Shown here: piece by piece, positions 12,265 through 38,558 of the stretch
Layout of the letters: each line of letters opens with the position of its first letter
Numbering within the stretch: position 1 is the first letter of the stretch
Assembly: GCF_013141825.1 (NCBI RefSeq)
Contig: NZ_RZNH01000001.1
Location: 186,001 to 250,000, forward strand
From: Marinifilum caeruleilacunae
GTDB lineage: Bacteria > Bacteroidota > Bacteroidia > Bacteroidales > Marinifilaceae
Reading direction: 5' to 3'
Length of the DNA stretch: 64,000 nt
The notes under the pieces: generated by a model
The model's input: only the letters and a program-made list of their open reading frames with translations
Database searches by the model: none
Told to the model about the DNA's origin: nothing
Translations under genes and position numbers: made by a program

Positions 12265-12636
12265 ATGACAATTCAGGAAATTGCAAAACTCATTAATTCT
12301 AAATGGGTTCACCAAATAAGAGCAGGCGAAAAACATCGATTTGTTGACATTACAATTGTAGAAACAGAAGGAAGATTTTTTGTTCGACAGTACAAATTTG
12401 GCATGAGAAGCTGGTATCATGCCTTTCTTCAAAATTCTACGGGTGCCATTAAAATAAATGATACCATAATTCCGATTGATGGCGTAGTTCCTAAAGATTT
12501 GAAAGAAATCAATCCTAAAGTGAACCGAGCCTACTTTAAAAAGCTAAATGTTCTTTATCCTTTAATGAGATTGACCTACAATCGAAAAAAACATGAAGCT
12601 TCTACACTGGAACTCATTCCAAAAATAAAGATGTAA
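12265..12636 (+). CDS. DUF2255-like protein
   Basis: This 123-residue cytoplasmic protein resembles the DUF2255 family. It has a short N-terminal helix, then VDITIVETEGRFFVRQYKFGMRSWYHAF, in which the strand pair plus RSW-type segment is the family's hallmark. The function of DUF2255 is not established, although members often sit beside flavin- or nitroreductase-type genes. Here it leads a three-gene run with a lipoprotein nitroreductase (36 bp downstream) and an AraC regulator. Assignment is from memory of the family, without a database search. Confidence 0.65.
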   Translation: MTIQEIAKLINSKWVHQIRAGEKHRFVDITIVETEGRFFVRQYKFGMRSWYHAFLQNSTGAIKINDTIIPIDGVVPKDLKEINPKVNRAYFKKLNVLYPLMRLTYNRKKHEASTLELIPKIKM

Positions 12637-12672
12637 AATCTGAAAACAAATCATTTACTAAAACACAAATAG

Positions 12673-13356
12673 ATGAAAAAAACATTTGCAATACTGCTTA
12701 CAATGGGAATATTAAATGCTTGCACAAGTGCACATGGCAATCGTAAAGATGCTAATACTGGAGCAACGGCAATTGCTAGTGATATCATTAAACTTGATCA
12801 ACCTAACATGAATCATAAAGCAAGTTTAATGGAGGCATTTCACAAAAGAAAATCGACTCGTAGTTTTGCAGAACAAAATATTAGCAAGCAAGATTTAAGC
12901 AATTTGCTTTGGGCTGCCGGAGGCATTAACAGGAAAAATGGTGGTAGAACAGTTCCTCTGCTTGGAGATATTTCAATTTATGTTGCCATGCAATCGGGTG
13001 TATACCAATATCAGCCTGTGCAACATGAATTAAAACAAATCATATCAGAAGACATTCGCGACCAAATTTCAGAACAAAGCACGGTAAAGAAAGCACCCCT
13101 GGTTTTTATTTATGCCATTGATGATAATTCTTTTCCTGATTTTATGAGTAAAGCCATGAAAGAAGCGCATGGTATGGATTTTTACTATGGAAATCAAACC
13201 GCATACTCCACACAAAATGTATATTTATATGCTTGCAGTAACAAGATGAATGCAGTGGTTATTGGAGGTTTTAAAAGAGAGTTTGTAGATCAGAAACTCA
13301 TGTTCGATGAGAATAAAAATTCTTATCTTATACAACTGGTTGGTTATTCGAAATAA
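12673..13356 (+). CDS. Lipoprotein nitroreductase (SagB/ThcOx-type)
   Basis: The 227-residue product starts with a lipoprotein signal ending in LNAC (Cys17). The mature domain has the nitroreductase opening AFHKRKSTRSFAEQNIS and LSNLLWAAGGINRKNGGRTVPLLGDI, which in this family contacts FMN. The C-terminal part (AYSTQNVYLYA, VIGGFKREFVDQ) fits the fold. Most nitroreductases are cytoplasmic; a lipid-anchored form would need FMN and a reductant outside the cytoplasm, or may have another role. It is followed 12 bp later by an AraC gene. Confidence 0.85.
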   Translation: MKKTFAILLTMGILNACTSAHGNRKDANTGATAIASDIIKLDQPNMNHKASLMEAFHKRKSTRSFAEQNISKQDLSNLLWAAGGINRKNGGRTVPLLGDISIYVAMQSGVYQYQPVQHELKQIISEDIRDQISEQSTVKKAPLVFIYAIDDNSFPDFMSKAMKEAHGMDFYYGNQTAYSTQNVYLYACSNKMNAVVIGGFKREFVDQKLMFDENKNSYLIQLVGYSK

Positions 13357-18438: not shown

Positions 18439-19299
18439 ATGAAAGTTTCCTTTGAAAAAATTCACAAAGAAGCCCTGTCATCTATAAAAGTTGTGGTCTT
18501 AGATCGAGAAGAAGGTCAACGCCCATTGCATTTTCATCCTGAATATGAGCTTACGCTAATCACCAAAGGATTTGGGAAACGATTTGTTGGAGATCACATC
18601 TCCACCTTTACAAAAAATGATTTGGTATTGATTGGAGAAAATCTCCCTCATTGTTGGATTCACAGTACAAAACTGGATATTGTAAGTATTCAGTTCAATC
18701 GGAGTATTTTTGGCGACAACTTTCTAAACCTACCTGAATTGAATGAAATTAAAACCTTACTGGATGATTCCAATCGCGGTTTATTTTTCGAAAATGCGAA
18801 GTCTGATATGATTTCCAGAATACGAAAACTATCTAATCTGTCGAACTTCGATAGAATTAGTGAATTGCTAATTATTTTGCATGAGTTGGGAAGTAAAGTT
18901 CACAAAACGTCCTTATCATCGAAGCATTTTAACACAGAAAACTTTACCAAGACCAAACATCGAATCGATAAGGTTTTTAATTACATCTATCAGAACATTA
19001 ATGGTGAGCTTAAAGTAGAAGTTGCTGCTGGAATTCTAAACATGACCACCTCTGCTTTTTGTCATTATTTTAAGAAGTGCACAGAAAAAACTTTTTCTGA
19101 ATTCGTAAACGAAATTCGTATTGGCTATGCCAGCAAACTCTTAATTGAAACTGATAATAATGTGTCCCAAATTGCTTTCGAGAGTGGTTACAACAGCTTA
19201 TCGAATTTTAACCAACGATTTAAACAAATTAAAGGAATGAGTCCCAAATCTTTTCGGGAAAAATATCATTCGGATGCCTATAAAGAATCGAAGAATTAA
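18439..19299 (+). CDS. AraC family regulator with cupin sensor domain
   Basis: This 286-residue protein differs from the five island paralogs. Its N-terminus is a cupin-type arm (LHFHPEYELTLITKGFGKRFVGDH; GENLPHCWIHS) that in sugar-responsive AraC proteins holds the ligand. The C-terminal double HTH (VEVAAGILNMTTSAFCHYFKK; SQIAFESGYNSLSNFNQRFKQ, SPKSFREKY) is clear. It is divergent from the GH127 gene across a 158-bp space and probably responds to a pentose or similar sugar. The ligand is not shown by the sequence. Confidence 0.92.
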   Translation: MKVSFEKIHKEALSSIKVVVLDREEGQRPLHFHPEYELTLITKGFGKRFVGDHISTFTKNDLVLIGENLPHCWIHSTKLDIVSIQFNRSIFGDNFLNLPELNEIKTLLDDSNRGLFFENAKSDMISRIRKLSNLSNFDRISELLIILHELGSKVHKTSLSSKHFNTENFTKTKHRIDKVFNYIYQNINGELKVEVAAGILNMTTSAFCHYFKKCTEKTFSEFVNEIRIGYASKLLIETDNNVSQIAFESGYNSLSNFNQRFKQIKGMSPKSFREKYHSDAYKESKN

Positions 19300-19373
19300 A
19301 CACAAAATCATCAATATGTTTATTAACATTGATTATAAATTGTCTTCTTTTCATTCTTATCAATAAAAAATAA

Positions 19374-19381
19374 TACATTTG
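19374..19381 (+). promoter_or_regulatory. -7 element of the cobalamin riboswitch transcript
   Basis: TACATTTG fits TAnnTTTG. Transcription would begin about 7 bases downstream, right at the 5' end of the riboswitch. The -33 region has no clear TTTG. Confidence 0.5.
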
Positions 19382-19386
19382 CAGCG

Positions 19387-19581
19387 CAATTGGTGCTCAC
19401 TTTGCATTCAGCAAATGGAGTTAAAAGGGAATCCGGTGTAAATCCGGAACAGTACCCGCTACTGTAAATCCCATAAACACTACGAGGTGTTTATTTGTTC
19501 TCAACAGTCTAAATCCACTGTTCTATTTAGAATGGGAAGGAGTTGAGAACTGGGAAAGTCAGGAAACCTGCCAGATGTAAT
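19387..19581 (+). ncRNA. Cobalamin (adenosylcobalamin) riboswitch
   Basis: The leader contains the conserved B12-box parts in order: GGTGC near the 5' end, AAAAGGGAATCCGGTG, the paired segment GTAAATCCGGAACAGTACCC, GCTACTGTAA, a variable stem arm, and GGGAAAGTCAGGAAACCTGCC at the 3' end. The region 19300-19683 is otherwise non-coding. It lies about 100 bp before a TonB receptor gene and would lower expression of the receptor and chelatase when cobalamin is plentiful. Whether control is at transcription or translation cannot be decided here. Confidence 0.96.
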
Positions 19582-19683
19582 TGTTTAATTATTGCTTCCG
19601 GGAAAAGAAGTTAATGATGGTTTTGTAGATTTTCAGAATTAAATCCCTCATTTATTCCAGGAATGCATTAGTATTATTTTACT

Positions 19684-23361: not shown

Positions 23362-23859
23362 TTAGTGTAAGTCTTTGCTAATCTGTTCAACCCATCTGGT
23401 TATTCTCTCATCTGATAAATCTCCCTGATTTTCTTCATCAAGAGCCAATCCAATAAATTTTCCATCAAGCACGGCTGTTGACTCATCAAAGTCATAGCTT
23501 TCGGTCTCAACAGAACCAACAATTTTACAGCCTTTATCTTTCACTACTTCGTAAATGCTTCCCATGCCTCCTACAAAAGTGTCAGGATTGCTGGAAGAAT
23601 CACCCAATCCAAAAATTGCAACAACTTTCCCACTTAAATCTGCCGATTCAACATTAGAGATAAAGTCTTCCCAGTCGTCTTGCAAATCACCCGCGCCCCA
23701 TGTAGAAGTTCCGAAAATCAGGTTTTCGTATTTTGTAAGAGCTTCTTCTGGTTTGGTCGAAACATCAATAATATCTGCCTCTAATAATCCTGCAAGCTGA
23801 TTTGCTGCATTTTCTGTATTTCCTGTAGTGGAACCGTAAATAATCGCTGTTTTACTCAC
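23362..23859 (-). CDS. fldA: Flavodoxin
   Basis: This 165-residue protein has the long-chain flavodoxin layout. The FMN phosphate loop is GSTTGNTE at residues 9-16, the first isoalloxazine loop is STWGAGDLQDDW with its Trp, and the second is GLGDSSSNPDTFVGG. It carries one or two electrons at low potential in the cytoplasm, replacing ferredoxin, typically under iron limitation. It has its own promoter at 23916-23946 and is separated by a terminator from the TonB/ABC/PepSY operon upstream, so it is not simply the last gene of that operon although the order may matter. Confidence 0.95.
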   Translation of the reverse strand: MSKTAIIYGSTTGNTENAANQLAGLLEADIIDVSTKPEEALTKYENLIFGTSTWGAGDLQDDWEDFISNVESADLSGKVVAIFGLGDSSSNPDTFVGGMGSIYEVVKDKGCKIVGSVETESYDFDESTAVLDGKFIGLALDEENQGDLSDERITRWVEQISKDLH

Positions 23860-23915: not shown

Positions 23916-23946
23916 CAAAATTAAGTAACAGTTCCCGACTTATCAA
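23916..23946 (-). promoter_or_regulatory. Promoter of flavodoxin
   Basis: On the minus strand, TTG at 23946-23944 (-33) is followed after 20 bases by TAATTTTG at 23923-23916 (-7). The leader would be about 50 bases. Confidence 0.6.
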
Positions 23947-23981
23947 TCATTATAAATGATGATTTTAATGTTATGAAAATC

Positions 23982-24009
23982 AAAAAGGCCTTCCTATACA
24001 GGAAGGCCC
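23982..24009 (-). terminator. Terminator of the TonB/ABC/PepSY operon
   Basis: On the minus strand GGGCCTTCCT pairs with AGGAAGGCC and ends in TTTTT, about 35 bp after the PepSY stop codon. Confidence 0.85.
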
Positions 24010-24042: not shown

Positions 24043-24597
24043 CTAAGAACAAAAAAACAAAAGAACAGGTATGATGAAACCAATAATCATCAACCACACT
24101 CCCCTTTTCTTAAATCCTTTTTTCCCTTTAACCATTATGGCACCAGAAATGGCAAAAAAGATTAAAACAATGGCATAAACAATGCCTATTGAAGAAAATC
24201 TTTGCCCTGAATTATAGTGAATATCGTTCACAAATTTATAAACAGGAATTTTCTTATAAGTGGTGACTTTTAGCTTACCATTATGTGGATGATACTCTCC
24301 CAAACCACCTTTAACGTATAGGTTATATACTTCACCGGCAGGTATAATGCGATTTAATTTTGGAGCATCGCCAAAGCCATTTTCCCAATAGGTTTTTAAC
24401 TCATCAGGTGTTAGGTTTGCTTTGGTGTTTTTCTCCAATACGATTTCACGATAGGACGGATTCTGCTCATCTTTTTTAAGAATCAGCAATATTCCCGAAA
24501 GCGCATAAATTAAAGTTAATCCAATAAATAAATATCCCAGGTCCCGGTGCAGTGACCTGATGTTTTTGTTAAAAAGTTTCTTATTCCACAATTTCAT
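24043..24597 (-). CDS. PepSY-associated transmembrane protein
   Basis: The frame opens at 24609, but ATG at 24597 (MKLWNKKLFNKNIRSLHRDLGYL) is the more family-like start, giving 184 residues. It overlaps the preceding gene by 17 bp, which suggests translational coupling. An N-terminal helix with the RxLHRDLG motif leads into a first membrane segment (about 20-42). A periplasmic PepSY-like region follows (VYNLYVKGG, GKLKVTTYKKIPVYKFVNDIHYN), then two more membrane helices near the C-terminus. Related PepSY membrane proteins transfer electrons to ferric siderophores. It probably works with the upstream transport proteins. Confidence 0.85.
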   Translation of the reverse strand: MKLWNKKLFNKNIRSLHRDLGYLFIGLTLIYALSGILLILKKDEQNPSYREIVLEKNTKANLTPDELKTYWENGFGDAPKLNRIIPAGEVYNLYVKGGLGEYHPHNGKLKVTTYKKIPVYKFVNDIHYNSGQRFSSIGIVYAIVLIFFAISGAIMVKGKKGFKKRGVWLMIIGFIIPVLLFFCS

Positions 24598-25093
24598 AAG
24601 AGGTTCCATTTACAAAATAGATCGAATAGAAATTTTTATTGTTTTCTTTCATCCAATCACGCATTTTGGTAATGTTGGTCATTTCAGCCGAACAATGTTT
24701 TCCACCCTCTTCGGCATCTTGTTTCGCTTTAACTTTTTGCTCATATTCATTAATAAACTCTTCGGATAGTCTTTTTTCTTGTACGGTTCCTTTTACACGA
24801 ATATCCATACCCGAAAGCTCACGATTAAAACCTTTGATTTCACCTTTTGCTTCAACACGTATAGAGAATTTACCTGTTTCATCTAATAAGAATGCTCTGC
24901 GTCCCGAATGTGCACAAACATGGCTTACGGTTCCCGAAAACTCTACTTCCGCACCAACAAGCTTTTCTGCATTTTCCAGGATTTCGGCAATGCTGGTAGT
25001 TTTAGTCGACTTTTCTGATAAGTGATTACCATTTGCCATAGCGCTTCCAACGAACATGATCATTGCCAGCGATAGAAATAACAATTTTTTCAT
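24581..25093 (-). CDS. Exported OB-fold-like protein
   Basis: This 170-residue protein has a signal peptide (residues 1-20, ending SAMA). The mature part resembles an OB-fold of the tRNA_anti/BOF type: EVEFSGTVSHVCAHSGRRAFLLDETGKFSIRVEAKGEI, then DIRVKGTVQEKR. Two cysteines are present in the mature part (VCAH; KHCSAEM), and the segment between them is rich in charged residues. It is expected in the periplasm. The role is unknown; binding of a small ligand or metal is possible. It lies within the operon, 12 bp after the DUF4857-like gene. Confidence 0.7.
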   Translation of the reverse strand: MKKLLFLSLAMIMFVGSAMANGNHLSEKSTKTTSIAEILENAEKLVGAEVEFSGTVSHVCAHSGRRAFLLDETGKFSIRVEAKGEIKGFNRELSGMDIRVKGTVQEKRLSEEFINEYEQKVKAKQDAEEGGKHCSAEMTNITKMRDWMKENNKNFYSIYFVNGTSYEIVE

Positions 25094-25105
25094 CTCTTTT
25101 AATTT

Positions 25106-26320
25106 TTATCGGTTAAATATTAAACTTGTTATAAATCCATAAATTCCTGTACATGCAATCCATACTACGGGAATGAATTGGAATTCTTGTTTGCGATATC
25201 GAATAATAAATACAAAAATCAATGCCAATAAAAAGTTGGTGACCAGAACCAGGTAAGATCCAAAATGTATAATTGGCTTAATATATTTTGTATTTCCGCT
25301 TGTAAATCCTACTGCAAATGGCAGGAAATATTTACTGTAGTTTGTTCCCACAGCCTGGCCTTCGATGAGAGTTCTATCTGCAATTTCTTTTGTATCTGCA
25401 TGAAGCGCCATCACCTCTTTACCTCTGCTGGAAACTACATTTACATTCCAATACAAAGGATTGGCCATTATCATCATTTGATCTCTGTCAACATCATAAT
25501 TGGGAGTTGGAATTTCCTGTAACTTATAGGAATCAGTAGTAATTAAATGTAGTTTCTTATTGGCATCAAACACAAAAGCATAGAAGCTTCTATCATCAGG
25601 TTCCATGGTAAGTATATACTCCGGCACAATTTCGGATGGCAAGGGCACTTTTTTAAGGAAAGGCATACTGTTTACCATTTTTAGATGAAAAATCTGATTC
25701 ATGTTATCGATGATAAAATAACCTTCATCATATGCTTTTCGCGTTGATGGATTACCTGCAGCCATTTTTGCAGGAAACTGAAAACCTCTTTTTACAAAGT
25801 GGTGGTTAAACTTCTCGCTTTTTTCTGTGTTAATTTCATTGGTTTCCGGATTGATGAACTCTATTTTATCCCTTAAACGAAATACATCGCCCGGCATTTC
25901 AATTCTTACTCGTCCCGACATCGATTCAAAAAGAGTGTACAAAGGAATGTGAGGTTTGTTTTTATCGGCTGGTTTTACTCTAAAAAAGAATTTTTTGGAA
26001 TTTACAATTCTTGGATTGATATCTATTCCATCAATACTTTTTGGCATTCGTCCATCGGCAAATAGCTGGGTTGAATAAAACATGGGCAAAATGCTATCGA
26101 ATTCCAATTCAGAATATACTCGATTGGTTTTAATGTTTTTTCGAATCAAGTGCCCCTCTTTTTCATCAAACTCAATGGCGCAAAAGGCTTTATCGATAGA
26201 ACTATAGTAAGTAAAAATGTTAGGAGATGCTATATCGGTAACCAGGTGGTAAGATTTTGGCAACAACCAGGCCAGGAGCAAACTTCCTAAAATGATGATT
26301 AAATATTTAATATTTTTCAT
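25106..26320 (-). CDS. DUF4857-like inner-membrane protein
   Basis: An ATG at 26356 is in frame, but ATG at 26320 (MKNIKYLIIILGSLLLAWLLP) is preferred because it gives a clean membrane helix at the N-terminus; the product is then 404 residues. A long periplasmic domain of about 300 residues follows, with beta-rich, propeller-like repeats (ILTMEPDDRSFYAFVFDANKK). Three C-terminal membrane helices close it. The sequence matches my memory of DUF4857, a Bacteroidota family of unknown function. With the ABC ATPase and permease it probably forms an inner-membrane complex. Confidence 0.72.
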   Translation of the reverse strand: MKNIKYLIIILGSLLLAWLLPKSYHLVTDIASPNIFTYYSSIDKAFCAIEFDEKEGHLIRKNIKTNRVYSELEFDSILPMFYSTQLFADGRMPKSIDGIDINPRIVNSKKFFFRVKPADKNKPHIPLYTLFESMSGRVRIEMPGDVFRLRDKIEFINPETNEINTEKSEKFNHHFVKRGFQFPAKMAAGNPSTRKAYDEGYFIIDNMNQIFHLKMVNSMPFLKKVPLPSEIVPEYILTMEPDDRSFYAFVFDANKKLHLITTDSYKLQEIPTPNYDVDRDQMMIMANPLYWNVNVVSSRGKEVMALHADTKEIADRTLIEGQAVGTNYSKYFLPFAVGFTSGNTKYIKPIIHFGSYLVLVTNFLLALIFVFIIRYRKQEFQFIPVVWIACTGIYGFITSLIFNR

Positions 26321-26339
26321 GTCAAATAAATCGAATAAA

Positions 26340-27011
26340 TTAATCCTGTATTCCAACTTTTAATCGTTGAACAGAAAAATAGCCGAATGGCAATACATAA
26401 AATGGAATCAATAGAACAGCCAGAATGATTAGGCCATAAGCTCCTGGAAAATCAGTTAGAAAACACAATTGCAGTGTACCAAACATGATTAATGCGTTAA
26501 AAATCCTACGTTTCCAGGTAGGTTCAAGGCAAATCCAGGACATAAAGGTATAAGCCGTGATTCCAGCAACATACCAAGGCAATATTGTATAAATGATGCT
26601 TGAAATGATCTCTTTTGGAAAATAGATTCCGGCAAATGCCAAAACGATGGCAACATGTAAAACAAAAATGATTGTTAAAGCCAAAAGTCCAAATCCCAGC
26701 ATTGAGAATACAATTTTCTTATTAGGAAGCGGTAAGTGTAAGCTCAGTTTTATTCTTTTCTGAATCATTTCAGGCACAAATTGTGCCAATGCCAAACAGA
26801 AACCTGTTGCCAATGGAAAGTACTTTAAATCGCGAAACAGAAACTGATCTCTGTTTACAATTACGTCCCATAAATGTTCTAATCCTACCAGTCTGAACGA
26901 TCTTCCTAACTTTAAAAAAATATAGGCCAAAAGAGCAAGTCCAACTGCAAAAGCGCCAATTGCAAACCATTTGGTCTTTTTCCATTCTTTAAATAATAAT
27001 GCATTTGTCAT
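26340..27011 (-). CDS. ABC-2-like permease subunit
   Basis: This 223-residue protein has about six membrane helices (around 15-33, 63-80, 98-125, 130-157, 165-182 and 190-213). The cytoplasmic start MTNALLFKEWKKTKW, with the acidic-Trp coupling helix, is typical for ABC-2 and NosY-like permeases. It begins 4 bp after the ABC ATPase gene ends and is its obvious partner. No substrate-binding lipoprotein of an importer type is present, so export, or energy transduction to the DUF4857-like protein, is as likely as import. Confidence 0.8.
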   Translation of the reverse strand: MTNALLFKEWKKTKWFAIGAFAVGLALLAYIFLKLGRSFRLVGLEHLWDVIVNRDQFLFRDLKYFPLATGFCLALAQFVPEMIQKRIKLSLHLPLPNKKIVFSMLGFGLLALTIIFVLHVAIVLAFAGIYFPKEIISSIIYTILPWYVAGITAYTFMSWICLEPTWKRRIFNALIMFGTLQLCFLTDFPGAYGLIILAVLLIPFYVLPFGYFSVQRLKVGIQD

Positions 27012-27015
27012 TTCT

Positions 27016-27903
27016 CTAATATTTACCTGTTAATCCAATAAATGCCTCTTCCAAACTCAAATTTTCTTCCAGTATTTCACTGGCAGACACATTGTATTTT
27101 GCGAATAAATTCTGCAATTCAGTTTTGCCTAATAAGGAGTAAACTTCGGTGTTTCCTTTTATGGTTACCGGGTTATAGATGTCGCTAATTTCATCTATAT
27201 AACCAGGATTAGAGCAAGTAAACTTGTATCGTTTAAACGATTCCAACAATTCATTTACAGGCTTCTGCATTACAATTCTACCATAATCCATAATCAAACA
27301 ATCGTCGATTAAACGCTCCATATCCTGTATGATATGGGAAGTGACAAATACCGTTTTATTTTCGGCTTTGGCATATTCGCTTAAATAGTCAACAAAAAGC
27401 ATTCGGTAACCCGGATCAAGCCCCATCGAAAAATCGTCCAGAATTAACAGCTCAGGATCCTGAGCAAGTATCAAACCCAATGCTACCTGCGATCTTTGTC
27501 CACAAGACATTCTCGAAATTTTTTGTTTCGGATCAATCTTTAAAAGTTTCATCAACTCGTAGTATGCTTCTTTTCTCCAATTCGGATAGAATGCCGAATA
27601 GAATTTTTCGATTTCCGAAATATTCATAAATGAATACTGAACATGGCCTTCGATCAATAATCCTACCTTTCTTTTTGTTTCTGGTGAAAGATTGGCCGAG
27701 CTTTCGCCAAACATTAAACATTCACCGCTACGAGGTTTTAAATAGCCATTTAAAATGTTAATCGTTGTAGTTTTTCCGGTTCCATTTTTACCCAATAAAC
27801 CCAGAATTCTACCTTGTGGAATTTCAAAATTCAAATTCTCATAAATACAGCGTTTGCCGTAATAGTGAGTCAAATTTTTACATTCAACAATAGCTTGTTG
27901 CAT
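27016..27903 (-). CDS. ABC transporter ATP-binding protein
   Basis: The 295-residue ATPase has Walker A GKNGTGKT at 38-45, a BcrA-like IEG segment at 84-86, the signature written as MSCGQ (132-136) in place of LSGGQ, Walker B LLILD (152-156) and the switch His190. Asp157 stands where the catalytic Glu normally is (DDF instead of DEP). The order and type match ABC-2 exporters rather than metal importers. It lies between the outer-membrane barrel gene (10 bp) and the permease (4 bp). Confidence 0.93.
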   Translation of the reverse strand: MQQAIVECKNLTHYYGKRCIYENLNFEIPQGRILGLLGKNGTGKTTTINILNGYLKPRSGECLMFGESSANLSPETKRKVGLLIEGHVQYSFMNISEIEKFYSAFYPNWRKEAYYELMKLLKIDPKQKISRMSCGQRSQVALGLILAQDPELLILDDFSMGLDPGYRMLFVDYLSEYAKAENKTVFVTSHIIQDMERLIDDCLIMDYGRIVMQKPVNELLESFKRYKFTCSNPGYIDEISDIYNPVTIKGNTEVYSLLGKTELQNLFAKYNVSASEILEENLSLEEAFIGLTGKY

Positions 27904-27913
27904 AATTGTTATT

Positions 27914-29431
27914 TTATAGTGTTAATCCAATTGCCAAATTAAATCCATATTGCGATTTCGATCCGCTAATGATCATTTGATTATATTCTAATCTGGTATA
28001 AAGTCCGTATGATTTTTTTGTACCTATATCATATCGAATATCCGTTCCCAGAATCAATTTATCTGCACTTAAGAATTTGTAATTTGGAGTAATGAGTCCT
28101 TCGTTTGCTCCCTCAGATGCTACATTTGTAGTTATTAGGTCGCTATTTAAACAGTAGTTTGCCAATGAAAATAATTTCAGATTTAAACTTGATTTTTTTA
28201 GAACAAACCTTTTCCCAAGTCCTAAATTTAAATTTAAGTGGTTTAGTTCTTGCAATGGTTTTTGCCCTGTTAAAATCCATCGCTCCTCGTTTGAGTATGA
28301 ATAATTTACATTTAAATGATAAAAAGTACTTCGGTGTTCTTTCTTGTAAAACAAAATACCATCTATACCTAACTTAAATTTATCAGCCGTATATTTTTGA
28401 GTCACATTTATAAGCTTAAAGTCTTTGTAAGAATGATCGAATCCTTTTTGACTTAAATATTTAAAATATGACTTTAGTTTTAAGAACCTTCCGTTAGGTT
28501 TGAACAATCTTCCAAGACTTAGATTCAAAGTTTTGGAGTTCATATGATTTATTTTGTATAAAATATCAGCCAGTTCCAATTCAGATTTTTGATAAGATAC
28601 AGAGCTGAAAAAACCTTTATCGTCAACAGGAATTAACTGAGTGCCAATCTCATAAGATTTAAGTTCATATGTATTATACTTGGGGTCATTAGATTTAACA
28701 GGAGTAGAAAATTCTTTATCACTTACTCCCATCCCTCTTAAATAATATATTTTAATTCCTGCTCCTGTTTTATAAACATCTATGTCCTGATCTTGCTGAT
28801 AATCGGCAAAACTAAAATTGGCACCAATTTTATACTTTTTGCTTATTTTTTTTAGCACCCCAATATTAATAGTTACATCAGAAACAGTAGACTTTGGTCT
28901 GGGATCTAATTTTCGGTACTCCTCTGTTGCTTTATATTTGCCTTGAATGCCAATCGTATAATTTTCACTTTCGTAATTATAGATTCCTTCGAAATAATAA
29001 TGCTCTTTATAAGATTTTCCTCCTATCGTATCTGCAACTATAAACGGGTATAACCTGTAATAATCACTTACTGTATTCCATTTAATATTTTCTGTATGGC
29101 TTTTTATATATTTTGCTCGCCCAAAAACAGAGCTTTGTTTTCTTTTTTTAAACGAATAAGCATCAAAATTTATCGCAGAATTTTTGTCTCCTAATTCGAT
29201 AATGTATAATCCATTCGATTTATTTTCTTGCAATGAGAGAGAAATATCAGAAAAAGACTTATCGTATTTATGACTCAACATTGCTGGATTTCTCCAAATT
29301 TCTGACTGGTTATTAATTAGTTCTTTTTCAAAATCAACGGCATTAGCATTTCTATTTTGAGTAAATGCAAAGGCTGCTGAATTGATAATAACAACAACAC
29401 CAAGAATATATTTTACTATGAATGAACGCAT
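27914..29431 (-). CDS. Outer-membrane beta-barrel protein (DUF6850-like)
   Basis: This 505-residue protein has a signal peptide (residues 1-24) and alternating amphipathic strands with aromatic girdles throughout (YYRLYPFIVADT, FYHLNVNYSYSNEERW, KSYGLYTRLEYNQM). It ends in an outer-membrane-type terminal strand (SQYGFNLAIGLTL). It resembles the DUF6850 barrel family of Bacteroidota, which has no known function. No plug domain is present. Being between the DUF4876-like lipoprotein and the ABC genes, it may form a second outer-membrane component of the same system. Confidence 0.75.
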   Translation of the reverse strand: MRSFIVKYILGVVVIINSAAFAFTQNRNANAVDFEKELINNQSEIWRNPAMLSHKYDKSFSDISLSLQENKSNGLYIIELGDKNSAINFDAYSFKKRKQSSVFGRAKYIKSHTENIKWNTVSDYYRLYPFIVADTIGGKSYKEHYYFEGIYNYESENYTIGIQGKYKATEEYRKLDPRPKSTVSDVTINIGVLKKISKKYKIGANFSFADYQQDQDIDVYKTGAGIKIYYLRGMGVSDKEFSTPVKSNDPKYNTYELKSYEIGTQLIPVDDKGFFSSVSYQKSELELADILYKINHMNSKTLNLSLGRLFKPNGRFLKLKSYFKYLSQKGFDHSYKDFKLINVTQKYTADKFKLGIDGILFYKKEHRSTFYHLNVNYSYSNEERWILTGQKPLQELNHLNLNLGLGKRFVLKKSSLNLKLFSLANYCLNSDLITTNVASEGANEGLITPNYKFLSADKLILGTDIRYDIGTKKSYGLYTRLEYNQMIISGSKSQYGFNLAIGLTL

Positions 29432-29512
29432 TATATTAACAACAATTAGACTCTACAAAATTTAAATAAGATCCGAAGAATTTATTTCCACGGATCTTAA
29501 TAATTAATTTTA

Positions 29513-30751
29513 TTATTCAGTTTCAATTACACCTGGAGAAGGCATCGCAGTTGGGATAAAATCTACAGCTGAATTATTGGTATCCATTAAAACAACTCTA
29601 CCATCGGCTTCTACATAGCTAACTTTACGTTTTACCGATTTACCATAGCGTGTATCATCACCATCACCACTATGAGTCCAGGTTAAATCCAAAGTTGGCG
29701 ACATTGCTTTCCATTGATACTCTGATGGAGTACTACATCCTACTGCATCAATAATTGCATCATTTGGAACTTCCCATGCATCATTGTCCATATCGAAAAC
29801 CAAATCTCCGAACACGAATTTATAGTCATAATGGTATGCATAATCGCTTGTAAAAGCTTCAGGTGTTACGTCATTCATTCTAAACAGAATATAAGAGTTA
29901 TAACCTCTGTTATGTAGATGCCAAACTGATGTTGAAGCGGAGACCATTTTAATCATATTAGGAACTTCAGGAACATCTACATCAATATCAGCACCATCGA
30001 ACCACTCAAAGTCTGATCCTGATAAATCAAATGAATTTGCGTTATCAGAAATGTGGTTAATAGCTATATCAGAAATTAAAATAGATTCTCCTGGTTGTAC
30101 AGGATAGTCTGTGCCATTTCCAGGTATTCTATATACAGCTCTAACAGGTGTAAATTCATTTCTGTTATCAGGAGATAAATCTACTAGTTTATCAACTGTC
30201 TGAAATTCTGTCTCTCCAATACACAGACCATCAGCATAAAGTACTTTTGAAGTGTTATTATACAATTCGAAATACTGATCTCCTTCTAAATATGGATCTC
30301 CTTCAGGAGTTTTGGTATCAGCAAAGAAAATTTCAGATATTACGAAATCAGATTTTGAACTGTAAACAAATAAATCTATATCAAGGCCAAATTCTCCACC
30401 TTCAATACTTACATTTTCTTTAAGACCTCTTATTGCACCGTGCATTAAAGTCTTGTTGCCATCTGCATTAACTGCATAATAATCAATTTCACCAGCAATT
30501 AGAAAATTGTAGATTCCCTCTTCCAGATCAATTGCAGGATATTCGAAACCATTTAATTCCATTACAATTTCTTCTCCCGAATTCACATTAGTAACGGTCA
30601 AATCTCCAAAATAGAAAGATGAGGTTTCAATATCATCGGGAGTATTTAACTGAATTGTTAAATATGATACAGGTATTTCATTATCATCATCGCTACAAGA
30701 GAATAGCGATACCACCATTAAAAGGCTTAAGCCAAATATCAGCTTTTTCAT
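29513..30751 (-). CDS. DUF4876-like lipoprotein
   Basis: This 412-residue lipoprotein has a signal ending SLFSC (Cys19) followed by the acidic segment SDDDNE that in Bacteroidota often marks surface export. An Ig-like first domain (YLTIQLNTPDD, GFEYPAIDLEEGIYNFLIAGE) is followed by a lamin-tail-like portion (FVISEIFFADTKTPEGDPY, EGDQYFELYNNTSKVLYADG). It fits the DUF4876 family from memory. It comes 11 bp after the TonB receptor and is probably its surface lipoprotein partner, comparable in position to SusD, BtuG or XusB but unrelated in sequence. Confidence 0.78.
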   Translation of the reverse strand: MKKLIFGLSLLMVVSLFSCSDDDNEIPVSYLTIQLNTPDDIETSSFYFGDLTVTNVNSGEEIVMELNGFEYPAIDLEEGIYNFLIAGEIDYYAVNADGNKTLMHGAIRGLKENVSIEGGEFGLDIDLFVYSSKSDFVISEIFFADTKTPEGDPYLEGDQYFELYNNTSKVLYADGLCIGETEFQTVDKLVDLSPDNRNEFTPVRAVYRIPGNGTDYPVQPGESILISDIAINHISDNANSFDLSGSDFEWFDGADIDVDVPEVPNMIKMVSASTSVWHLHNRGYNSYILFRMNDVTPEAFTSDYAYHYDYKFVFGDLVFDMDNDAWEVPNDAIIDAVGCSTPSEYQWKAMSPTLDLTWTHSGDGDDTRYGKSVKRKVSYVEADGRVVLMDTNNSAVDFIPTAMPSPGVIETE

Positions 30752-30762
30752 TTTTAGTTATA

Positions 30763-33516
30763 TTATAGATTAATATTAAGTTCCATACCAAAATATGGAT
30801 TTGAAATTCTTCTCACATGTAATCCGTCTTCAGTTGTATAGCTAGGGTGATAATCGAGTATGCTATTCACATAAAAAGACAATTTCATATACTCACCTAT
30901 TTCTTTGGAAACAGTTAAGTTAATATCAATACCAATTGGAGTTCTTTTGGTATCAAACTCATTAGAGCTAGGTTCATCGTATAAAAACCTTAGAACAGGA
31001 TCTGTAGTATCAGATTCATCATACTTAAAAAAGTTGCCTGATTTATCCATATAAGAATCAGGCATACCATTATGAGGATTGCGTTTATTCTTATAATACC
31101 ACATACATTGTATTGAAGTTGAAAAAATCAATCCAAATTCCTTTATATGTGTATCTGCCCTAAAATTGGTATTAAATTGTTCATATTCTTTACCTAGGTC
31201 CCAATTGTAAAGACCTACATATGGATATAGACCGACATCAATATATTTCTGAGGTCTTTTATAGGTAGGTTGACTTAAATCGTATTTAGCTTTCATCCAG
31301 GCACCATTAAGCGAAATTCTAGATTTTAATGCTTTAATTTGTCCAAAATCAATTTGATATTCGAAACCTTGCTTTGTTTCTTTGGCACCATTGATATTTT
31401 GGTTATAAAACATGAAATCTTTCTTGTCTTCAAACTCAAACATATCAACCGTTGGCGGTTCATTTATATCTTTTGGCTGAGGTCCTGAACTAATGTCATA
31501 TAATTTATAATCCATTACAGCAACACGACTTAAATTCTTATATCCATTTTTTAATTCTTCGCGATATGCATTTAAATATGCACGAATTTTACCAAGCCTA
31601 ATATTTAAGCCTAATTCAAACTTCTCATTTCTTATTGGGTCTAATTCATAATTAACAGGATCAACAATTTTTGTTTTATAATGCACCTGTCTCAAATTTT
31701 CATTCTGTGAATAATAAGTCAATTGTACTTTATCAAAATATTGTACATCGGGATACAAATGAGACAATCCAGGAAATTTAGAGTGCATACCATACCCCCC
31801 AATAAACTCTAGGTTTACATCTTGATTCCAAATATTAATTTCCGGTAACTTCCAATTTAAATTAATGCGTGGATCGAAATAAAATTTATCGGATATTTTG
31901 TATGCTGAATTGACATTAAGTGCCCTATTTGCTCTTACTCCACCTTTAAATATAATGGTGTGTAGTGATATTGGCAGAACTATTTTATCTTCGAAATAAA
32001 CTGCTATTTTTTGCATGGAAGGAATATCCTTTGATGCTCTCGGTCGACCTACTCCAGCATACAGTGGTCTGGTTTCATCATATACCTCTCCATCCCCAAA
32101 ATTTTTACTGTAATTCCAATTTGCACCTAAAAGAATATTGTGATTTAAATTAAAAGTCTTTGCAACTAAATAACTGGAAATATCAGATGATATATAAACA
32201 GGTTTACCATCGAGTTTTAAATGTCCCATGTAGGAACCTGGTAAATAAGTGCCGTAAAATTCACCTTCTTCTCTATTTGTATATACCGGAGTTCTATTTC
32301 CAGCAACAGGTTCTGTTAAATTTTTTTCATTTTGGGTGTAACTGGCATTTACCAATACATCGAGATTTTTGAACCATGAGGAAGTGTTATTTGAGATGTT
32401 TAGTGATGATCCAAATACAATCTTATTGTATTTGCTATCATAAACCGACTCTTGTACATCAATTTCAGGGTCTGTCTTACTCTCATCAAAAGATCCAGTA
32501 TAATCGAAGTTTGAATGAAATGTTATAGAGTTCTTAGCTTCTTTTTTGTATTCGAAACGTATCGATCCTGTTATTCTACTGTAATTAACCTTAGGATTCC
32601 TTGCATCCGCTTTATAATCCAAAAAGTCCAAATCCATATTTAAACGACTATCATCATTTAAATCAATCCCTTTACCTACAGAAAATAATTTTGAGCCAGG
32701 ATCTGACTTTATTCTTGCATAAAAAGGTTTTGCTTTGTATGAACGCTTGATATTAACCAATCCACTTGTCAAGTCTCCATATTTTACTGATGGAATACCT
32801 CTTACAATTTCTACCGATTCAATATTATCAGTCGAAATCAAGCGCATATCTATCCCTTTTCCTGTTGTATTTCTATTTGCAATATAGCTTCCATTTCCAT
32901 CGGTAATATTCTGTAATTCTGCATCATTTGATAAAGTATGTCCATCGATTACAAAGGCAGTTCCAAAGGAGGTGTTATAGTCATAGTCATAATCATTTGC
33001 TTCGAGAGGTTCACGCAATGATATCAACTGCATGCTAGTCATTTTATTTTTAACTGTAACACCGCCAGGCAATAATTCCAATATATCTGCAAAACTAGAA
33101 GGCTGTAAGTGTCTTAGTGCATCTTTTTTAATGGTCGATGATGTTCCATTCACTCGAGATTCTTCCGCAATTACAGTTACTTCGTTGAGTCCTTGTGTTT
33201 CCACTTCCATACTTATTTGGAAGTTTTTTATTCCTGAGCGAAGAGTAATTTTCTGTTCAATTGTTTTGTATCCCAAACAGGAAACATATAATATATAATC
33301 TCCAGCTTGTACATTTTCTATTGTAAACTCACCATTATTATTGGTAACCGACCACTTATGCACTTCCTTTAAAACAACAGTTGCCAATTCAACTGGTATT
33401 TCAGATTCAGCAACAATAACTTTACCACTAAAAGTGATCGTCTCTTGTGCGTATATCGATTTGTTAGTCAATAAAACAGCAAAAACTAAACAGTATGAAA
33501 GTATCTTGAATTTCAT
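30763..33516 (-). CDS. TonB-dependent receptor, first gene of the eight-gene operon
   Basis: This 917-residue receptor has a signal peptide (to about residue 23), a CarboxypepD_reg-like domain (FSGKVIVAESEIPVELATVV), a plug (LPGGVTVKNKM, FVIDGHTLSNDAEL, IESVEIVRGIPSVKYGDLTSG) and a large barrel ending in YFGMELNINL. Its plug carries an Asp/Tyr-rich insert (NDYDYDYN). It imports something bound by the lipoprotein encoded next. No riboswitch is seen in its leader, so its regulation differs from the corrinoid receptor. The substrate is unknown; metal complexes, heme or corrinoids fit the neighbours. Confidence 0.92.
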   Translation of the reverse strand: MKFKILSYCLVFAVLLTNKSIYAQETITFSGKVIVAESEIPVELATVVLKEVHKWSVTNNNGEFTIENVQAGDYILYVSCLGYKTIEQKITLRSGIKNFQISMEVETQGLNEVTVIAEESRVNGTSSTIKKDALRHLQPSSFADILELLPGGVTVKNKMTSMQLISLREPLEANDYDYDYNTSFGTAFVIDGHTLSNDAELQNITDGNGSYIANRNTTGKGIDMRLISTDNIESVEIVRGIPSVKYGDLTSGLVNIKRSYKAKPFYARIKSDPGSKLFSVGKGIDLNDDSRLNMDLDFLDYKADARNPKVNYSRITGSIRFEYKKEAKNSITFHSNFDYTGSFDESKTDPEIDVQESVYDSKYNKIVFGSSLNISNNTSSWFKNLDVLVNASYTQNEKNLTEPVAGNRTPVYTNREEGEFYGTYLPGSYMGHLKLDGKPVYISSDISSYLVAKTFNLNHNILLGANWNYSKNFGDGEVYDETRPLYAGVGRPRASKDIPSMQKIAVYFEDKIVLPISLHTIIFKGGVRANRALNVNSAYKISDKFYFDPRINLNWKLPEINIWNQDVNLEFIGGYGMHSKFPGLSHLYPDVQYFDKVQLTYYSQNENLRQVHYKTKIVDPVNYELDPIRNEKFELGLNIRLGKIRAYLNAYREELKNGYKNLSRVAVMDYKLYDISSGPQPKDINEPPTVDMFEFEDKKDFMFYNQNINGAKETKQGFEYQIDFGQIKALKSRISLNGAWMKAKYDLSQPTYKRPQKYIDVGLYPYVGLYNWDLGKEYEQFNTNFRADTHIKEFGLIFSTSIQCMWYYKNKRNPHNGMPDSYMDKSGNFFKYDESDTTDPVLRFLYDEPSSNEFDTKRTPIGIDINLTVSKEIGEYMKLSFYVNSILDYHPSYTTEDGLHVRRISNPYFGMELNINL

Positions 33517-33612: not shown

Positions 33613-33643
33613 CAAAAGTATGCGATAGCTTTACTTAACACAA
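33613..33643 (-). promoter_or_regulatory. Promoter of the TonB/ABC/PepSY operon
   Basis: On the minus strand ATTG (ending at 33641) is followed after 20 bases by TACTTTTG at 33620-33613, a match to TAnnTTTG. The start of transcription would be near 33606, giving a 90-base leader. Confidence 0.5.
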
Positions 33644-33777
33644 TCCTCATAATTGGTGATATCATCAAGCTGAAATCATAACATCTTATGAGAACTTTTA
33701 AAAAGGCTTGTAAATTTGATCAGGTAGACTGTTGAAAACAGCAATATATTTGTGTAGAGCTTCACTAGCCGGAATAC

Positions 33778-34013: not shown

Positions 34014-34280
34014 ATTTCTGTCTATTAAATTGTTAAGGTTCTGTTTGATAAAAGTAATACCAGAAACTTTGACTATCAATCACCATATTTGATGAAATAA
34101 CTACAGGTGAATCATTATTTATTATGATATCATACTCCACAAATAGCTATTAACTTTACTTTATTACCTCCGGCTAATTATGTCATACATCTTGCTTAAA
34201 CGCATATTGATAGAATCTATATGCAAGTTGATATAAAAAGCTATGAACTGCCAGCTTTTTAAATTACATTTGACATCGAA

Positions 34281-37222: not shown

Positions 37223-37828
37223 TTACATTGCTTCTTCTGGTTTGATAATATTATTCATTAAAGCATAAACCGTTAAGCCTGAAATTGTTTTAATCCCAAG
37301 CTTACTGGTAATATTTTTACGATGCGTAATTACCGTATTAATCGAAATAAATAACTGATCTGCAATTTCTTTATTGGAACATCCTAAAGCAACTGCTTTA
37401 AGAACATCAATTTCCCGATCACTTAAGCCTCTCGAATCTTCGTCCTGAGAATCATCGGTCATAGGATCGTAGAAAAATTGTTGAAGTTTCTCAACAACAC
37501 TTTTTCTGCTGCTGGTTTGAGAAATAAAATAATCGAACATACATCTCTCACTTTGTTGTTTCCCGATCAAAATGGTTCGGCACATACATGTCGATTTTTT
37601 AACTCCTTCAAAACATTCCATTTTTTGCTTTTGCATGATATCTTCGCAAAGAATGAGAAAATTTGTCTGTGGTACATCTTTCAAAATACATTCCAACTCG
37701 TCGTAGCTATCCGCCTCATGCACTTCAGATTCCAATCCAATTACATTTAGGAGGGTTTTAACTCCAAGTCTTACCAAATATTGTTCCGAAGCAATTATAG
37801 TATGAACTTTTCTGTTTTCAATTTCCAT
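37223..37828 (-). CDS. LuxR-type regulator with degenerate, Cys-rich receiver domain
   Basis: The frame is open from 37924, but the first 32 codons lie within the upstream gene; ATG 37828 (MEIENRKVHTIIASEQYLV) gives 201 residues. The C-terminal LuxR HTH is clear (LSDREIDVLKAVALGCSNKEIADQLFISINTVITHRKNI). The N-terminal receiver has lost its active site: Ser14-Glu15 instead of the acidic pair, Cys61-Glu62 where the phosphorylated Asp should be, Gln104 instead of Lys. It has cysteines at 47, 61, 72, 81, 83 and 96. It overlaps the hemerythrin gene by 11 bp and is probably translationally coupled. Confidence 0.88.
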   Translation of the reverse strand: MEIENRKVHTIIASEQYLVRLGVKTLLNVIGLESEVHEADSYDELECILKDVPQTNFLILCEDIMQKQKMECFEGVKKSTCMCRTILIGKQQSERCMFDYFISQTSSRKSVVEKLQQFFYDPMTDDSQDEDSRGLSDREIDVLKAVALGCSNKEIADQLFISINTVITHRKNITSKLGIKTISGLTVYALMNNIIKPEEAM

Positions 37829-38558
37829 AATACTCCAAAACCTTTTTTTCCAACATTTTAACCTTTGGTATAAGCACCTTTTCTTCCATCCTAGTATGAT
37901 CTTCAATATCACACTCAAGTTCAAACAATTCTGTTAAAAGGTGTTCACAATCATCTTCACAATGCAATGGTGGTAAAAACCTGATAATTAGATTTTTCAA
38001 ATCGGCCAGTTTCACTTCTAGACTCTCGTGATTGCGTTCGTATACCTCAATCGGGTCATTCTTAATTTTATTTATGAGTTCCTGGCTGCAATTGTTTGTA
38101 CTCAATGCTCTCTCTAAATCAAGAACATACGGAAAAACACTTCTTTCCTCCTCTTTAAAATGATGCTCTACATCAACTTTATATTCTTCAAAAAATGTTT
38201 TGAGTAAACTGATATTTCTGCAATTCTCCTCTTGAGCTTCCTCTTCCATTTTTTTAATAAAAAGCTCAATATGTGGCACTTTAGACTTCAAATAGTATGT
38301 ATGGGTATTGGTCAGGTATTCAACCATAACCTCGGCATTAAAATCACTAAAATGTTTATCCGGAAAATAATCCGAATTGTGATAAGAATTCAATATTTCA
38401 AGAAAAAAGGGCACATTCACTTTTTTTTCTTCGCAGATTTCATTCACAGTTTTATTGCCAAAGCCTAACTTTATTCCAAACCTGTTAATCACAGGAAGCA
38501 GTTGATAATCTTTTAAAATGATCTCTGCCATTTTACTATGTCTTGTAAAAGCTATCAT
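37818..38558 (-). CDS. Hemerythrin-domain protein, YtfE/ScdA (RIC)-like
   Basis: This 246-residue protein (or 237 from an ATG at 38531) has a ScdA_N-like N-terminal domain and a hemerythrin four-helix bundle. Likely di-iron ligands are His86 or His96, His132/133, Glu137, His177, His221 and Glu225. The usual CC motif of the ScdA N-terminal domain is absent (FGIKLGFGNKTVNEIC). RIC proteins help repair iron-sulfur clusters or respond to nitric oxide and oxygen. Overlap with the LuxR gene suggests a sensor-regulator pair. Confidence 0.88.
   Translation of the reverse strand: MIAFTRHSKMAEIILKDYQLLPVINRFGIKLGFGNKTVNEICEEKKVNVPFFLEILNSYHNSDYFPDKHFSDFNAEVMVEYLTNTHTYYLKSKVPHIELFIKKMEEEAQEENCRNISLLKTFFEEYKVDVEHHFKEEERSVFPYVLDLERALSTNNCSQELINKIKNDPIEVYERNHESLEVKLADLKNLIIRFLPPLHCEDDCEHLLTELFELECDIEDHTRMEEKVLIPKVKMLEKKVLEYYGN

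Follow-up and report, generated by a model that had tools for sequence, protein, structure and literature searches.

We analysed a stretch of 64,000 nucleotides of the Marinifilum caeruleilacunae genome (contig NZ_RZNH01000001.1, positions 186,001 to 250,000; hereafter the window), and we propose that eight genes on its minus strand form an operon for TonB-dependent uptake of iron, modular in build and repressed by iron (probability about 0.6). The proposal is built on a putative iron operator in front of the operon and on comparison with related loci (denoted L below). Two observations are new here. The first is the exchange of an outer trio of genes (TonB receptor, DUF4876 lipoprotein and DUF6850 barrel), as a cassette, over a constant engine of an ATP-binding cassette (ABC) ATPase, an ABC-2-like permease and a DUF4857 protein. 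The second is Asp in place of the catalytic Glu of the ATPase.

A putative operator links the operon to the iron regulon

A first operator matrix was built from six sites in L037-L042, none of them from the window. Its three best matches in the window (at 34074, 33638 and 23941) score 24.0-26.1, against a maximum of 20.1 in 20 randomised windows. Two of them precede the operon and the flavodoxin gene fldA (Table 1). The third (34074-34099, minus strand, score 26.1) lies upstream of an open reading frame (ORF) of 46 amino acids (aa) at 34013-33873, which has a terminator-like stem (33812-33782) after it. This site and ORF possibly represent an iron-controlled small RNA or peptide; tblastn gave no match to the ORF in the fetched loci beyond the window's own copy. 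A second matrix added the two window sites to the first six. When it was applied to L043-L116, 11 of 40 receptor promoters and two of four flavodoxin promoters exceeded random stretches of their own locus (p<=0.05). All 11 receptor promoters are from labelled members of the Bacteroidales except that of L048 (Ichthyobacteriaceae).

A promoter-operator signature, the GATTG end of the operator and a TAnnTTTG box 20 bp apart, was first seen in the window and L037-L042. It occurs twice in the window (0.13 expected; none of 100 shuffles reached two), the operon's copy being a 33-bp match at 33613-33645. Across the window and 80 related loci (1.33 Mb) there are 27 copies, as compared with 1, 2 and 1 in randomised copies of the same sequence. 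Fifteen of the 25 sites outside the window precede a receptor gene, three a flavodoxin gene and two the ATPase gene where the unit begins there; the rest precede a ChaN-like gene, a hemerythrin-type gene, a 783-aa ORF and a 569-aa ORF (one each) or no gene (one). When the defining loci L037-L042 are left out, 18 sites are retained (receptor 9, ATPase 2, flavodoxin 2, other 5). In L083, divergent signatures lie at 19289-19398 between a flavodoxin gene and an ORF which, read by eye, starts like a copper P-type ATPase.

In the organism's own genome (5.27 Mb) the signature occurs 11 times and a reversed-pattern control not at all. Scored with a window-free matrix, five of the 11 sites reach 8.8-23.9 and six stay at or below 1.1. 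The five precede a TonB-dependent transporter-HmuY-PepSY-CobN (hmu) locus, a second flavodoxin gene, fldA, the studied operon and FeoAB; since the signature was derived in part from fldA and the operon themselves, the independent finds are hmu, the second flavodoxin and FeoAB. The operator shared with feoAB, hmu and the flavodoxins would thus place the operon in the iron regulon. Bacteroidota promoters have elements of the -33/-7 type, and the putative operator lies at the -33 element, as would suit repression.

The shared operator also bears on a corrinoid function, which the first-pass annotation had listed among its options. A cobalamin riboswitch (19374-19589), a receptor gene and a gene for a CbiK-family lipoprotein lie on the plus strand (up to 22943), 1-5 kb past the last gene of the operon, and corrinoid uptake by the operon could be tied to them. 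This explanation is barely credible: no cobalamin riboswitch precedes the operon in the window or in seven related loci, of the loci L020-L116 that of M. flexuosum alone showed the CbiK/receptor neighbour, and the operator is that of feoAB, hmu and the flavodoxins. We therefore reject the corrinoid link. The segment 19374-22943 looks like a separate corrinoid or cobalt-chelatase unit. In Labilibaculum (L039 and L040) a cobalamin riboswitch (12569-12752) follows the operon, and the genes after that of L039 look by eye like an anaerobic ribonucleotide reductase and its activase, not like uptake genes.

Published iron responses of similarly annotated loci

On iron depletion, BT3625-BT3633 of Bacteroides thetaiotaomicron were upregulated 36.7-128-fold and PG1019-22 20.8-214.5-fold (PMC10434189, as far as its available text goes). 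The annotation given there for BT3625-BT3633 includes DUF4857, ABC ATPase, PepSY, DUF4876 and receptor genes, and on this annotation and the gene order in other Bacteroides (L070) the locus probably corresponds to our operon. It differs in having two PepSY- and two DUF4876-annotated genes. In the same available text, BT3625-33 is called a putative locus of fimbrillin synthesis and transport, present in B. thetaiotaomicron but in neither of the two other species of that comparison, whereas the operon family is widespread in our data.

That annotation, together with the exporter-type ATPase, would suit a fimbria-type surface-structure locus in which the receptor is incidental. We find this very doubtful, as the Pfam scan detected no fimbrillin family in the studied operon, the annotated fimbrillin BT3630 would, by gene order, sit where DUF6850 sits in related Bacteroides loci, and the operator points to the iron regulon. 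Searches of the literature collection used here returned one paper on DUF4857 and none on DUF6850 or on structure 4Q1Z. The common operator and the published induction strongly support iron among the substrates originally suggested, and the earlier proposal of iron uptake with the PepSY protein as reductase is supported by context.

The outer cassette can be exchanged over a constant engine

The DUF4857 protein of M. caeruleilacunae is 80% identical to that of M. breve and 79% to that of M. flexuosum. When the latter two species are compared with each other, the outer proteins share 59% (receptor), 54% (DUF4876, better of two copies) and 31% (DUF6850) identity, and the inner ones 99% (ATPase), 100% (permease), 97% (DUF4857), 98% (OB-fold-like protein, OB) and 97% (PepSY). 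At the junction of barrel and ATPase genes, DNA identity in 250-bp bins rises sharply, from 63% to 96%. The first 60 residues of the receptor are 100% identical, those past residue 120 only 28-67%, and a flanking gene is 99% identical. Similar patterns were found in Draconibacterium (L092/L093; outer trio 35/39/29%, engine trio 95/97/96%) and Carboxylicivirga (L043/L046; outer 30/25/26%, engine 94/90/87%, OB 84%, PepSY 81%). Since the outer genes differ jointly while the engine stays near-identical in these three close pairs, receptor, lipoprotein and barrel can be replaced as one cassette. The pyoverdine receptor FpvA is likewise replaced between close strains (receptor polymorphism), but in our case the replacement involves three outer genes jointly and leaves the inner engine unchanged.

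Over a broader range, distances were compared in the 38 of 80 loci that have all six families within set length ranges, using the best paralogue. The outer genes correlate among themselves with r of 0.89-0.95 and ATPase, permease and DUF4857 with 0.93-0.97, and the two groups correlate with each other at 0.62-0.68 (0.70-0.79 in the 23 loci with an OB gene). Two caveats apply to the modular interpretation: the outer genes are highly diverged, so that saturation may depress the outer-versus-engine values, and exchange was seen in three of eight close pairs (DUF4857 distance <=0.13) and not in the other five.

Two modules recur in related genomes

In 295 genomes of the order Bacteroidales, DUF4857 scored over the cut-off in 40 and DUF4876 in 56. 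DUF4876 was present in 39 of the 40 genomes with DUF4857 as compared with 17 of the 255 others (Fisher test, 5e-34), and lay within 13 kb on one contig for 37 of 47 DUF4857 loci. In a phylum set of 198 genomes, DUF4857 occurred in seven, DUF4876 in 15 and both in six. Co-occurrence, the check suggested in the first-pass annotation, is therefore borne out for DUF4857 with DUF4876, but not for DUF4876, which stands without DUF4857 in 17 of its 56 Bacteroidales genomes. Thus, it can be concluded that the operon consists of two modules, outer and inner.

A scan of a genome collection gave 149 relatives of DUF4857. The system occurs in Bacteroidota and in contigs labelled Ignavibacteriales, Calditrichota and Neomarinimicrobiota; a search of plasmids found no DUF4857 relative. 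The best 80 of the 149 loci were used; all were fetched by DUF4857, many are cut by contig ends, and the counts apply to set score thresholds. Families of the engine were found most often (DUF4857 78, ATPase 73, permease 72), then those of the outer module (receptor 51, DUF4876 53, DUF6850 57) and accessory ones (OB 41, PepSY 35, YCF48-type 24, polyferredoxin 16, M16 peptidase 8, flavodoxin 5). OB/PepSY occurred alone in 38 loci, polyferredoxin alone in 13, both in three and neither in 26; the polyferredoxin scores below the cut-off on the NosR and NapH models. ATPase, permease and DUF4857 stand together in 67 loci with median gaps of 8 and 26 bp, and in one genome permease and DUF4857 are fused in a 680-aa ORF. 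This gene order and the natural fusion suggest that the three form one complex. In L036 (6916-12552) two such trios lie in tandem, and no receptor cassette was recognised in that stretch.

The outer module was also found on its own. In 20 stretches with outer cassettes, DUF4876 and DUF6850 accompany a receptor apart from the trio, and DUF4857 is missing from some of these genomes and located elsewhere in others (e.g., L133, L134, L135). Among the stretches listed, the neighbours of detached cassettes include OB (L128), OB and PepSY on the opposite strand (L129), a di-haem peroxidase (L118), a HEAT-repeat protein (L133), ChaN with two M16 genes (L131), and polyferredoxin with S46 and/or M16 peptidases (L130, L132, L134, L135).

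These peptidases make protein-borne iron a serious rival. In a Fus-like iron piracy, the receptor would take up a protein fragment carrying iron or haem, proteases would open it, and the ABC complex would move the product or the metal; in the available portions of the two sources, FusC is described as an M16 protease that serves iron piracy (PMC6071955) and cleaves ferredoxin (PMC6793856). We nevertheless consider this fairly unlikely for our operon, which has no protease among its eight genes. Moreover, five of the eight loci with M16 near the unit are labelled Ignavibacteriales, Ignavibacteriae, Stygiobacter or Melioribacter, and no named Bacteroidales genus is among the eight.

Layout of the operon and properties of its proteins

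The ORF list of the window contains eight co-directional minus-strand ORFs at the positions given earlier (Table 1). Counted from the receptor gene, the gaps are 11, 81, 10, 4, 19, 12 and -29 bp, taking ATG 26320 as the start of DUF4857 (with the earliest candidate start, TTG 26356, the gene would run into that of the permease). The gaps are mostly short, as first described, with the largest between barrel and lipoprotein. A promoter-like box and a terminator-like stem were found about where a promoter (33613) and a terminator (23982) had been placed. Judged from spacing and signals, the eight genes probably form a single transcription unit. The earlier description of the operon as envelope-spanning is supported.

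Table 1. Features of the operon and of the adjacent fldA unit in the window (E values and scores as obtained).
Feature	Position	Strand	Basis
Putative iron operator of the operon	33638..33663	-	Score 25.6, first matrix (six sites, L037-L042)
TAnnTTTG box, -7 type	33613..33620	-	20 bp downstream of the operator's GATTG end
TonB-dependent receptor, 917 aa, outer cassette	30763..33516	-	ORF; Pfam Plug 1e-7, CarbopepD_reg_2 3e-18
DUF4876 lipoprotein, 412 aa, outer cassette	29513..30751	-	ORF; Pfam DUF4876 3e-55
DUF6850 outer-membrane barrel, 505 aa	27914..29431	-	Pfam DUF6850 6e-74; AlphaFold model
ABC ATPase, 295 aa	27016..27903	-	ORF; Pfam ABC_tran over cut-off
ABC-2-like membrane protein (permease), 223 aa	26340..27011	-	ORF; about 6 hydrophobic helices, simple hydropathy scan
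DUF4857 protein, 404 aa	25106..26320	-	ORF; Pfam DUF4857 4e-89; AlphaFold and VIA
Exported OB-fold-like protein, 170 aa	24581..25093	-	ORF; HxCxHxG and distal Cys
PepSY_TM_like_2 membrane protein, 188 aa	24043..24609	-	ORF; PF16357 35.7 bits, cut-off 27
Terminator-like stem and T run, 3' of PepSY gene	23986..24009	-	Sequence
Putative iron operator of fldA	23941..23966	-	Matrix score 24.0; exact signature 23916-23948
Flavodoxin gene fldA, not part of the operon, with the same type of operator	23362..23859	-	ORF, family scans, signature

The original family labels hold, save that neither the permease nor the OB protein reaches the cut-off for any Pfam family. The plug domain of the receptor marks it as a protein of TonB-dependent uptake. 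Cys19 of the DUF4876 lipoprotein is invariant across 55 aligned rows, and the family profile matches PDB entry 4q1z (E 8e-72). The AlphaFold model of the barrel has 18 strands of at least 11 residues (mean predicted local distance difference test, pLDDT, 92.7). No Pfam or NCBIfam family was found for the permease, and neither it nor DUF4857 has a PDB sequence relative at E up to 1. The DUF4857 model (mean pLDDT 91.0) shows an N-terminal transmembrane helix, a beta-rich periplasmic domain with propeller-like blades and C-terminal helices. Despite the propeller-like model, comparison of the DUF4857 profile with itself gave no significant internal repeat. The OB protein gave only sub-threshold matches in Pfam and NCBIfam, and no PDB sequence relative below E 0.13. 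The PepSY protein has three hydrophobic helices and conserved His21 and His131.

In the ATPase, Asp157 occupies the position of the catalytic Glu (LDDFSMGLD), a replacement found in 69 of 69 alignment rows; the signature reads MSCGQ, and the best PDB matches are ABCA lipid transporters. The ABC pair had been described as exporter-type and lacking an import binding protein, and indeed Pfam and NCBIfam scans found no binding-protein family in the operon. DUF4857 might nevertheless act as a tethered binding domain. With it, the trio could be a classical importer moving intact haem or a chelate across the inner membrane, as might be suggested by the large conserved periplasmic domain and by the trio mostly adjoining a receptor cassette. 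Such import is quite improbable given the matches to lipid transporters and the Asp for Glu. Furthermore, trios that are 87-100% identical accompany outer genes with an identity of 25-59%, which would be odd if the engine had to recognise the ligand. For this reason ligand recognition by the engine itself seems unlikely, and a step that every ligand would share (stripping, metal handover or upkeep of an envelope bridge) fits better than import.

A proposed model of iron uptake

Under iron shortage, a repressor, presumably of the Fur/DtxR type, would leave the operator at the -33 region. The surface cassette, which we regard as a unit because its three genes are exchanged jointly, would then capture a ferric ligand, with DUF6850 as a porin-like barrel, and pass it to the periplasm by TonB-driven entry. 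There, iron may be reduced and freed by the PepSY protein, whose two conserved His may bind haem, while the HxCxH OB protein would handle the iron; in some relatives a NapH/NosR-like polyferredoxin may serve instead or in addition, in part of them with M16 peptidases. The complex of ATPase, permease and membrane-anchored DUF4857 is probably slow (Glu to Asp) and might drive periplasmic stripping, handover or maturation rather than import of the ligand, which is the weakest step of the model. Fe2+ would enter via FeoAB, which has the same type of operator. A more specific version would be a new architecture of iron uptake, in which the ATPase with its invariant Asp, through a propeller-like periplasmic arm, is a metal-stripping or handover motor and not a transporter, under interchangeable three-part cassettes and with PepSY or polyferredoxin as alternative electron donors; it is offered tentatively and may well be wrong.

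Comparison with known systems

The NosDFYL/NosR system of N2O-reductase maturation has an ATPase, an ABC-2-type permease and a large periplasmic beta partner. The operon shares these three elements and its relatives carry the polyferredoxin with sub-cut-off NosR/NapH scores, but DUF4857 is propeller-like and does not match NosD in Pfam, none of the eight genes matches NosL, and the operator points to iron. Among the literature listed there was no paper on the NosDFYL mechanism. The hmu locus of the same genome (L175), of the Hmu haem uptake type, shares operator type, receptor and PepSY; HmuY and the CobN-like HmuS are absent from the eight genes and present elsewhere in the genome.

Xus (XusABC, BT_2063-2065) likewise combines a TonB receptor, a surface lipoprotein and a PepSY protein in an iron-stress context. 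In the available text of PMC13142918 a similar order of steps is stated and the inner-membrane Fe2+ carrier is unknown. However, the Xus lipoprotein is of the DUF4374 (XusB) type, whereas that of the operon matches DUF4876 only (Pfam to E 0.1), and the barrel, the OB protein and the ABC-DUF4857 engine are absent from Xus. Fus ferredoxin uptake, as far as it is described in the accessible parts of PMC6793856 and PMC6071955, is similar in its receptor, inner-membrane transporter and M16 protease, the last found in some relatives but not in the operon, which has an extra lipoprotein, barrel and PepSY protein. Since the Xus lipoprotein family, HmuY/HmuS, NosD and an M16 protease are all missing from it, the operon is filed as a variant of TonB-dependent iron uptake, Xus-like with an added Nos-like ABC engine.

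Neighbouring genes

ChaN-type haem-binding proteins are encoded near the operon or an outer cassette in L044 (15007-15873), L046 (14057-14938) and L131 (11659-12606), and the gene in L044 bears the signature. In the window a gene for a LuxR-type regulator lies beside one for a hemerythrin-domain protein (37223-38558, minus strand). The pair recurs in L038, L039, L042, L045 and L049, with the signature before it in L045; CdhR of P. gingivalis may offer a lead to this arrangement.

Significance

A row of unknown domains, with a similarly annotated locus that is strongly iron-induced in a human gut commensal, becomes a testable iron uptake system, and the promoter-operator signature picks out an iron regulon in this genome. 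The question raised is what role is played by an ABC engine that does not follow the ligand. Exchange of cassettes between near-identical operons bears on competition for iron and on receptors for phages or bacteriocins.

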